From Candidatus Omnitrophota bacterium (GTDB taxonomy: Bacteria; Omnitrophota; Gorgyraeia; Zapsychrales; Zapsychraceae): a DNA stretch of 36,469 bases. The DNA lies in the NCBI GenBank assembly GCA_015233405.1, contig JADFXT010000004.1, positions 1 to 36,469 on the forward strand. The letters are read 5' to 3'. Shown here piece by piece: positions 4,672 to 6,692 of this stretch (positions within the stretch are counted from its first letter, which is position 1; each line of letters starts with the position of its first letter). The notes under the pieces were generated by a model, which had not been told where the DNA came from, made no database searches, and saw only the letters and a list, made by a program, of their open reading frames with translations. Both the position numbers and the translations under genes were made by a program.

Positions 4672-4744
4672 AGCCGACGAGAGGAATCGAACCCCCGGCC
4701 CGCGCTTTACGAAAGCGCTGCTCTACCATCTGAGCTACGTCGGC
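4672..4744 (-). tRNA. tRNA-Thr (anticodon CGT)
   Basis: The complement folds as a full cloverleaf: acceptor GCCGACG/CGTCGGC, D arm GCTC-AGATGGTA-GAGC, anticodon stem GCGCT/AGCGC with loop TTCGTAA (anticodon CGT, reads ACG), a five-base variable loop, and a T arm with loop TTCGAAT. CCA is not encoded; a T run follows directly. It sits at the end of a long transcript leader made of hairpin repeats (4781-5208). Confidence 0.96.
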
Positions 4745-4780
4745 GTAATCTACCGCTAAATCTTTTCGAGAGAAGATTGC

Positions 4781-5208
4781 GCCGTACCCAGTTTTCCTTT
4801 TAAAACCTTTAGAGGAAACAGGGTCGGCAAATAACCATCTTCAAAGAACATGCCGTTACCCAGTTTTCCTTTTAAAACCTTCAGAGGAAACAGGGCCTGC
4901 CCTGCGAAGCTGAACATATGAAAAATTCAGCGAAGCATGGGTCGGCAAATAGCCATCTTCAAAGAACCTGCCGTTACCCAGTTTTCCTTTAAAAACCTTC
5001 AGAGGAAACAGGGCCTGCCCTGCGAAGCTGAACATATGAAAAATTCAGCGAAGCATGGGTCGGCAAACAACCATCTTCAAAGAACCTGCCGTTACCCAGT
5101 TTCTTCTAAGAATTTTAAAAGGAAGACTGGGTCGGCGAATAACCATCTTCAGAGAACCTGCCGTTACCCAGTTTCTTCTAAGAATTTTAAAAGGAAAACT
5201 GGACCAGC
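4781..5208 (-). repeat. Five tandem hairpin units in the leader of tRNA-Thr
   Basis: In transcript sense each unit begins GCCGACCC and ends ACTGGGTAACGGC, so its ends pair into a 4+7 bp stem. Units lie at 4781-4828, 4852-4946, 4970-5064, 5088-5136 and 5160-5208, separated by 23-base spacers that share TTCTTTGAAGATGG (one A-to-G variant reads TTCTCTGAAGATGG). Units 2 and 3 are about 47 bases longer, carrying an extra hairpin (CTGAA/TTCAG stem, CATATG in the loop) just after GCCGACCC. The first-transcribed unit (5160-5208) has degenerate ends. Position 4745-4780 is a 36-base tRNA-proximal spacer. A sixth copy stands before tRNA-Phe. Any reading frame across this block is repeat translation, not a gene. 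Confidence 0.9.
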
Positions 5209-5231
5209 AAAAACTCTTCTAATATGCAAAC

Positions 5232-5259
5232 ATCATAAACGAAAAATGCACAGATTCAA
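5232..5259 (-). promoter_or_regulatory. Putative sigma70-type promoter of the hairpin-repeat/tRNA-Thr transcript
   Basis: In the complement: TTGAAT (5259-5254), 16 bases, TATGAT (5237-5232). Transcription would begin near 5225, about 15 bases before the first hairpin unit, so the whole repeat array would be the 5' leader of tRNA-Thr. Confidence 0.5.
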
Positions 5260-5301
5260 ATATTTTTTTGCTTCAAATATTCCGGTAATTAAAAAATACT
5301 A

Positions 5302-6438: not shown

Positions 6439-6514
6439 TGGTGCCGAGACCCAGAATTGAACTGGGGACACAAGGCTTTTCAGGCCTCTGCTCTACCAAC
6501 TGAGCTATCTCGGC
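6439..6514 (-). tRNA. tRNA-Phe (anticodon GAA)
   Basis: The complement folds as acceptor GCCGAGA/TCTCGGC, D arm GCTC-AGTTGGTA-GAGC, anticodon stem GAGGC/GCCTT with loop CTGAAAA (anticodon GAA), T arm CCCAG-TTCAATT-CTGGG, discriminator A and an encoded CCA. It has its own promoter (6664-6692), a 143-base leader with one hairpin unit (6551-6598), and a terminator directly behind. Confidence 0.97.
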
Positions 6515-6550
6515 GTCATTTACTACTAAATCTTTTCTAGAAAAAACTAT

Positions 6551-6598
6551 GCCGTTACCCAGTTTTCCTTTAAAAAATTGAGCGAAGCATGGGTCGGC
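6551..6598 (-). repeat. Single hairpin unit in the leader of tRNA-Phe
   Basis: Same family as the array at 4781-5208: in transcript sense it starts GCCGACCCATGCTTCGCT and ends AAAACTGGGTAACGGC. It carries only the left half of the extra hairpin seen in the long units, and looks like a long unit that lost the middle between two T runs. The 36 bases between it and the tRNA (6515-6550) match the equivalent 36 bases before tRNA-Thr at 26 positions, including GAAAAGATTTAG. Confidence 0.85.
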
Positions 6599-6663: not shown

Positions 6664-6692
6664 ATTGTAATGGAGAGCTTTTTGATTGTCAA
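6664..6692 (-). promoter_or_regulatory. Sigma70-type promoter of the tRNA-Phe transcript
   Basis: Complement: perfect TTGACA (6692-6687), 17 bases, TACAAT (6669-6664). Predicted start near 6657 puts the hairpin unit 6551-6598 inside the precursor of tRNA-Phe. Confidence 0.75.

Follow-up and report, generated by a model that had tools for sequence, protein, structure and literature searches.

A hairpin array before tRNA-Thr in an Omnitrophota bacterium read as a probable pile of small insertions that regenerate the tRNA gene

In an uncultured Omnitrophota bacterium, 5 hairpin units stand in tandem before a tRNA-Thr gene, and nearly all of them open with the first bases of the tRNA itself. The locus raises the question of whether these units are a working part of the precursor RNA or the trace of events at the DNA level. 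We analyzed the whole stretch of DNA that carries it (36,469 nucleotides of contig JADFXT010000004.1; hereafter the window) together with the rest of its genome and with related genomes. The original prediction of a 5-unit array was borne out by the repeats found, and both tRNAs were called by ARAGORN and Rfam (Table 1). No Rfam family other than tRNA matched at the gathering threshold in the window.

Each unit of the Thr leader is composed, in order, of X1 (GCCGACCC), 1 or 2 hairpins, X' (GGGTAACGGC), and a box. All units had been expected to start with GCCGA-CCC and to share one end; 4 of the 5 do start in this way, but the outermost opens with GCTGGTCC, and the innermost ends with GGGTACGGC, one A short. 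The direct repeats are spaced by 118, 118, and 72 bases (overall range 72-118), with 2 hairpins in each of the 2 units of the 118-base type and a single hairpin in the other 3. The adjacent units 2 and 3 are 97% identical across 118 bases, so copy number changes by recombination, as had been proposed. The sequence GCCGACCC occurs in 4 copies before Thr and 1 before Phe, against 0.75 expected in the window, and none of 100 shuffles reached 5; CTGGGTAACGGC likewise has 4 copies before Thr and 1 before Phe, with 0.10 expected in the window. The proposed Thr promoter is plausible, with 9 of 12 consensus matches, but not distinctive, as 7 such sites were found against 3.8 expected in the 2.3-kb region. 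No ORF, and specifically no GIY-YIG ORF, was identified inside the Thr and Phe array units of the window. Elsewhere in the window, an ORF at 756-1019 on the minus strand resembles, by eye, the first reading frame of an IS3-type transposase.

Table 1. Features of the tRNA-Thr array and the tRNA-Phe leader, in window positions
Feature	Positions	Strand	Evidence and parts
Intact tRNA-Thr(CGU), putative regenerated copy closing the array	4672-4744	-	ARAGORN; Rfam tRNA 64.3 bits
Innermost hairpin B before Thr	4742-4783	-	R1 match, 47.9 bits; structure comparison; arm GGCGCAATCT; loop b TCTCTCGAAAAGATTTAGCGGT 4752-4773; arm AGATTACGCC continuing into tRNA 5' end
Unit 1	4781-4828	-	X1 GCCGACCC 4821-4828; hairpin CCTGTTT...CTGG 4788-4822; X' GGGTACGGC 4781-4789
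Unit 2	4852-4946	-	X1 4939-4946; hairpins 4900-4939 and 4860-4894; X' GGGTAACGGC 4852-4861
Box of unit 2, TTCTTTGAAGATGG, after X'	4835-4848	-	
Unit 3	4970-5064	-	X1 5057-5064; hairpins 5018-5057 and 4978-5012; X' 4970-4979; box 4953-4966
Unit 4	5088-5136	-	X1 5129-5136; hairpin 5097-5129; X' 5088-5097; box 5071-5084
Unit 5, outermost	5160-5208	-	Degenerate X1 GCTGGTCC 5201-5208; hairpin 5169-5201; X' 5160-5169; box 5143-5156
Candidate Thr promoter TTGAAT-16-TATGAT	5232-5259	-	Consensus match only, 9/12
Intact tRNA-Phe(GAA), single-unit leader	6439-6514	-	ARAGORN, Rfam
Phe hairpin B	6512-6553	-	Loop b TTTCTAGAAAAGATTTAGTAGT 6522-6543; 3' arm continues into tRNA; R1 48.8 bits
Phe unit	6551-6598	-	X1 GCCGACCC 6591-6598; hairpin; X' GGGTAACGGC 6551-6560
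Candidate Phe promoter TTGACA-17-TACAAT	6664-6692	-	Consensus match 11/12

What had been described as a 36-base conserved spacer before the tRNA is actually the loop of a further hairpin, hairpin B, in which X' forms the 5' arm and the start of the tRNA itself, with about 5 leader bases, forms the 3' arm. The module can accordingly be written as X1 (a copy of the tRNA 5' end), hairpin, X' (its complement), a conserved loop b of about 22 bases, and the intact tRNA. Among 16 aligned B hairpins from various tRNAs and genomes, 86% of cells were paired compared with 54% in shuffles, and 47 double-sided changes were counted compared with 15.6; several of the 16 had been chosen for their palindromes, so this result describes the anatomy of the hairpin and not a function. 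Loop b is kept across 7 families of the order. Of 31 hairpins abutting a tRNA upstream, 30 are in sense orientation, a count to be read with the fact that the search model, R1, was trained on upstream sense hairpins.

The modules are tied to tRNA genes well beyond the window. An 8-base copy of the gene's own 5' end was identified upstream of 12 of the 42 tRNA genes of the same genome, compared with 36 of 1,610 cross-pairs (2.2% expected; p = 9e-11), and shorter own-start copies, such as those at Thr and Phe, come on top of these 12. When all 42 leaders were read, modules or split copies were found at Thr(cgt), Thr(tgt), Phe, His, Ala(ggc), Gly(tcc), 5 Arg genes, Ser(gga), Ser(cga), Glu(ttc), Glu(ctc), Leu(gag), Pro(cgg), and one Met gene. 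Searching this genome with the leader DNA returned matches at tRNA loci only, one of them being a tRNA body itself. A common repeat like GACCGAGGACGAAATGTCCGAGGGAATGGTTGAGCATC, unrelated to loop b, was noted at Gly(tcc), at Thr(tgt), and downstream of Arg(acg).

The search of related genomes that had been suggested was performed with covariance model R1 and detected the module in 37 of 73 genomes from the order, next to tRNAs of most isotypes. When 285 genomes were drawn from across the phylum, R1 matched 11 of them at 1e-3, with 10 belonging to the same order and 1 to another family of the class (G245); in the latter (L230, 1350-1600), 2 b-modules stand directly before a tRNA-His-like sequence running into masked bases, and the module therefore reaches beyond the order. 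Equal numbers of units away from tRNAs, named beforehand as the outcome that would tell against a tie to these genes, were not what we found: 42 of the 58 model matches in the loci read stand in sense orientation fewer than 400 nt before a tRNA, and 30 of those abut it. Among the 8 matches without an annotated tRNA, 3 run into truncated tRNA sequences and 5 have no tRNA or tRNA fragment nearby. The claims that the units start with the tRNA's own first bases and lie between a candidate promoter and the tRNA also stand. Exact-pattern scans of genome contigs returned 0 and 2 loci, one of them in G018 (JAHFGK01, an Omnitrophota MAG). On either side of the tRNA-Phe gene of G018 run long series of palindromic hairpins connected by ACAG or ACTG linkers; some of those downstream are reversed. 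In another genome, a tRNA-Arg(CCT)-like sequence with hairpins in its anticodon loop and T-loop lies directly behind a b-hairpin (G023:C23, ~280,200); ARAGORN did not accept this sequence even with the hairpins left out, and it is thus probably a dead copy.

A genome of the same genus (G001) made it possible to compare module-bearing and module-free tRNA genes that have the same promoters. In the genome of the window (G000), tRNA-His, Ala(ggc), Glu(ttc), and Met are filled, and in G001 they are empty. From the -10 element to the tRNA, the empty genes measure 38 (Ala), 35 (Glu), 12 (Met), and 100 (His) bases; in the filled genes, the distance from -10 to X1 is 23, 20, 10, and 91 bases, respectively, whereas the intact tRNA lies 478, 197, 104, and 322 bases away. 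X1 thus sits where the tRNA of the empty gene starts, which identifies it as the original tRNA start and the downstream tRNA as a regenerated copy, and the array records insertions by which that start was displaced and then rebuilt downstream. All 4 filled and empty pairs combine a displaced native end, with X1 at the native promoter distance, and a supplied replacement end, and they show, as far as sequence comparison can, an insertion history of displaced start and regenerated tRNA. Ala(cgc) and Val(tac) have the opposite pattern of filled and empty genes between the 2 congeners. Both congeners have modules, with differing hairpins, at Thr(cgt), Arg(acg), Arg(tcg), Arg(tct), Glu(ctc), Ser(cga), and Pro(cgg), and upper hairpins are swapped wholesale between them. 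As in known hairpin elements, the units are small, palindromic, and present or absent between close relatives. Of the explanations offered at the outset, decayed remnants of a tRNA array came nearest to the truth: X1 is a displaced tRNA 5' end, and elsewhere in the order such copies extend as far as the D arm or the anticodon arm.

Arms kept for RNA folding should tolerate G.U pairs and not A.C mismatches. We counted both at the inner positions of 93 hairpins with at least 7 of 9 Watson-Crick pairs, taking the tRNA stems of the same loci as control. The arms had 12 G.T and 18 A.C, compared with 27 and 2 in the acceptor stems (Fisher p = 2e-5); the anticodon stems had 18 and 0. The chance background of the hairpin search was 8-18 per shuffle at 7 pairs and 0-3 at 8 pairs, and at the 8-pair threshold the arms still had 7 G.T and 10 A.C. 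As judged from these counts, the hairpin arms are palindromes without wobble tolerance. The compensatory stem changes that had been anticipated do occur, in that the arms covary, but G.T is no commoner than A.C, and the pairing of compensatory change with G.U tolerance that marks a structured leader RNA was not found in the modules. The proposals of a processing signal or of a buffer binding processing enzymes are not supported by these counts, nor by the same tRNA genes occurring with and without a module in congeners; an RNA decoy or processing module was rejected as the main reading by the wobble counts against the tRNA stems and by the empty orthologues. Folding prediction for the whole Thr leader gave probabilities of 0.89-0.99 for the acceptor pairs of tRNA-Thr; the predicted minimum-energy fold of the Phe leader invades its tRNA.

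Longer relatives of the modules were identified in other genomes, where displaced copies end or bear hairpins at the D-loop, anticodon arm, or T-loop, with split points at acceptor, D-arm, anticodon, and T-loop boundaries. At Gln(ttg) in 2 congeners and at Glu(ttc), Gln(ctg), and Val(tac), the intact tRNA is separated from the displaced 5' copy by a GIY-YIG ORF of about 85 codons; at Gln(ctg), the arrangement occurs twice in tandem. At Ser(tga), a GIY-YIG ORF lies beside the tRNA and its 5' copies. These ORFs matched Pfam PF01541 with E <= 1e-13 (52-59 bits). Across 15 genomes, 20 of 51 small GIY-YIG loci were within 300 nt of a tRNA, on either side, compared with about 1 expected (1.8%; p = 4e-22). 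The same split point in Glu(ttc) is found with the ORF in one genome (G004) and without it in the genome of the window, and in G018 a single tRNA-Ser(tga) gene has both b-hairpins and a GIY-YIG ORF. As in homing elements, the ORF of the long relatives lies at the target gene and is flanked by target sequence; an endonuclease ORF within the insertion is absent from the units of the window and present in other genomes. GIY-YIG action as the sole cause was rejected, as 20 of the 51 loci are tRNA-linked and yet the short units have no ORF. The genome of the window has a single tRNA-adjacent small GIY-YIG ORF (C42:144464-144777), about 30 nt downstream of tRNA-Leu(gag); upstream of this tRNA gene stands a split copy of it that contains a D-loop hairpin. 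In G018, GIY-YIG ORFs are followed by a tRNA-Asn 3' fragment, a mirror image of the displaced 5' copies.

The Thr array is probably a pile of small, target-regenerating mobile insertions into the tRNA-Thr gene. Each insertion would split off the first bases of the tRNA (X1, here GCCGA), add 1 or 2 palindromic hairpins, and close with a regenerated tRNA start. We infer that a nuclease-bearing element cuts an intact tRNA gene, into which it is then copied with a filled locus as the source and the flanking tRNA parts as homology; the ORF-less hairpin units would then be non-autonomous relatives or remnants of longer elements, and a GIY-YIG enzyme is the candidate for moving them. The fresh tRNA start at the end of such an element would keep the gene alive and open to re-invasion, and repeated insertion with unequal recombination would yield a tandem array. 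In the precursor RNA, the units may be passengers of the leader that a single RNase P cut would suffice to remove, given the normal fold predicted for the tRNA downstream of the Thr leader.

Several observations count against the insertion reading. No clean target-site duplication of constant length was found, the lengths varying from 7 to about 57 bases; the Thr and Phe units contain no ORF, and the one tRNA-adjacent GIY-YIG ORF of this genome is downstream of Leu(gag). The conservation of loop b and the 30 of 31 sense orientations are not predicted by a purely DNA-level model alone, and the occupancy of Thr(cgt) and several Arg genes in both congeners could also mean function. Together with X' copying the acceptor strand and about 5 leader bases, they leave room for an RNA role. 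The modules might thus be a functional leader RNA, in which alternative X1.X' and X'.tRNA pairings, making a four-strand exchange with the 3' acceptor strand, and a protein bound to loop b would control pre-tRNA folding, RNase P cleavage, or transcription. The co-changing arms and the placement between promoter and tRNA would also suit such a role, which we nevertheless consider unlikely given arms without wobble tolerance, module-free copies of the same tRNA genes and wholesale swapping of upper hairpins among congeners, acceptor pairs of tRNA-Thr predicted to form in the full leader, and no listing in Rfam. The sense bias and loop b conservation likewise leave room for a real RNA device, a tRNA-leader family that spread as insertions and was retained for use, in which each unit would mimic the acceptor stem of its own tRNA and switch the precursor between folded and sequestered states; we give this a rather low probability. 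A T-box-like reading, with UGGU of loop b pairing to the tRNA 3' end, was dropped, as UGGN is present in only part of the loops.

Other alternatives dispense with a leader RNA of this kind. Without any mobile element, replication slippage and template switching at palindromes might duplicate the tRNA 5' end time after time and perfect inverted copies, the hairpins being general intergenic palindromes. This process would be consistent with the arms that neighboring hairpins have in common (X, X', X, X'), with the location of split points at structural boundaries, with the 97% likeness of tandem units, and with generic GC-rich palindromes in other split copies; a specific conserved loop b and GIY-YIG ORFs placed between split copy and intact tRNA count against it, and we hold it to be improbable. 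Loop b might instead be a diverged boxA, the NusB/S10 antitermination site of rRNA leaders. The rRNA leaders and spacers of these genomes have a GTTCTTTGACA-like boxA, sometimes followed by ATTGTGG, and loop b reads TTCTnnAwAAA..TTGTGG, with 4 array units reading TTCTYTGAAGA; however, comparison by eye with the 16S leaders and spacers of 4 genomes found the CUUU core absent from most b loops, and a boxA explains neither X1 nor the empty orthologues, which makes this origin very unlikely. Displaced tRNA ends are also the classical scar of large integrative islands that use a tRNA gene as attachment site, and some relatives have displaced 3' parts too. Remnants of such islands would nonetheless be extremely improbable here: the units measure 50-120 bases, stand in tandem on the 5' side, and have split points between bases 7 and 45; no integrase was seen in the loci read or in the 50-120 base units, and no intermediate of kilobase size was seen. 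Integron attC sites (RYYYAAC/GTTRRRY) were rejected by eye on mismatching core sites.

If the insertion reading is correct, small elements have split the tRNA genes of most isotypes again and again in one uncultured bacterial group, each time leaving an intact tRNA, and both ORF-bearing and ORF-less forms occur at the same genes. Such elements would be a bacterial tRNA-gene counterpart of fungal elements that duplicate gene ends, would offer a natural test of how a nuclease can parasitize essential genes without splicing, and would give rise to long hairpin leaders and to truncated copies of tRNAs overlooked by annotation. Our literature search found no description of such elements in bacteria. 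Mobile DNA favors tRNA genes as landing sites, where it usually takes the form of large islands and enters at the 3' end. In the tyrT operon of Escherichia coli, the rtT repeats are tandem, lie in the tRNA transcript, and contain a piece of the tRNA; as generally described, they resemble the array in being tandem repeats with a tRNA piece and differ in lying downstream and carrying the 3' end.

Small palindromic units, known as double-hairpin or repetitive hairpin elements, occur beside tRNA genes and in RNA genes of mitochondria (PMC2800124 and the Allomyces work cited there). Like the modules, they often stand 2 in tandem in spacers and vary between close relatives; unlike the modules, they have no tie to the neighboring gene's own end and no endonuclease ORF. 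SegB, a small free-standing phage homing endonuclease of the GIY-YIG type, is tRNA-linked, has been implicated in cutting tRNA-containing DNA, and drives tandem amplification of a tRNA-containing segment, according to the part of the source drawn on here (PMC13096335). The 2 systems appear alike in a GIY-YIG enzyme at tRNA genes and in tandem repeats, with nuclease action presumed in ours; SegB acts in phage genomes, where the whole tRNA plus segB is amplified, and that part of the source describes neither split tRNA copies nor hairpin arrays. In gene architecture, a likeness is seen to the mobile ORFs of fungal mitochondria, in Allomyces atp6 and in Glomus atp6, atp9, cox2, and nad3, where endonuclease insertion displaces the end of the gene and supplies a replacement, so that an intact gene remains (PMC3630166). 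In both cases, the gene is split, its end displaced, and a replacement end supplied, but the Allomyces and Glomus elements concern the C-terminal ends of protein genes in mitochondria, whereas those described here concern bacterial tRNA genes, mostly their 5' ends, and are mostly ORF-less tandem hairpin units.
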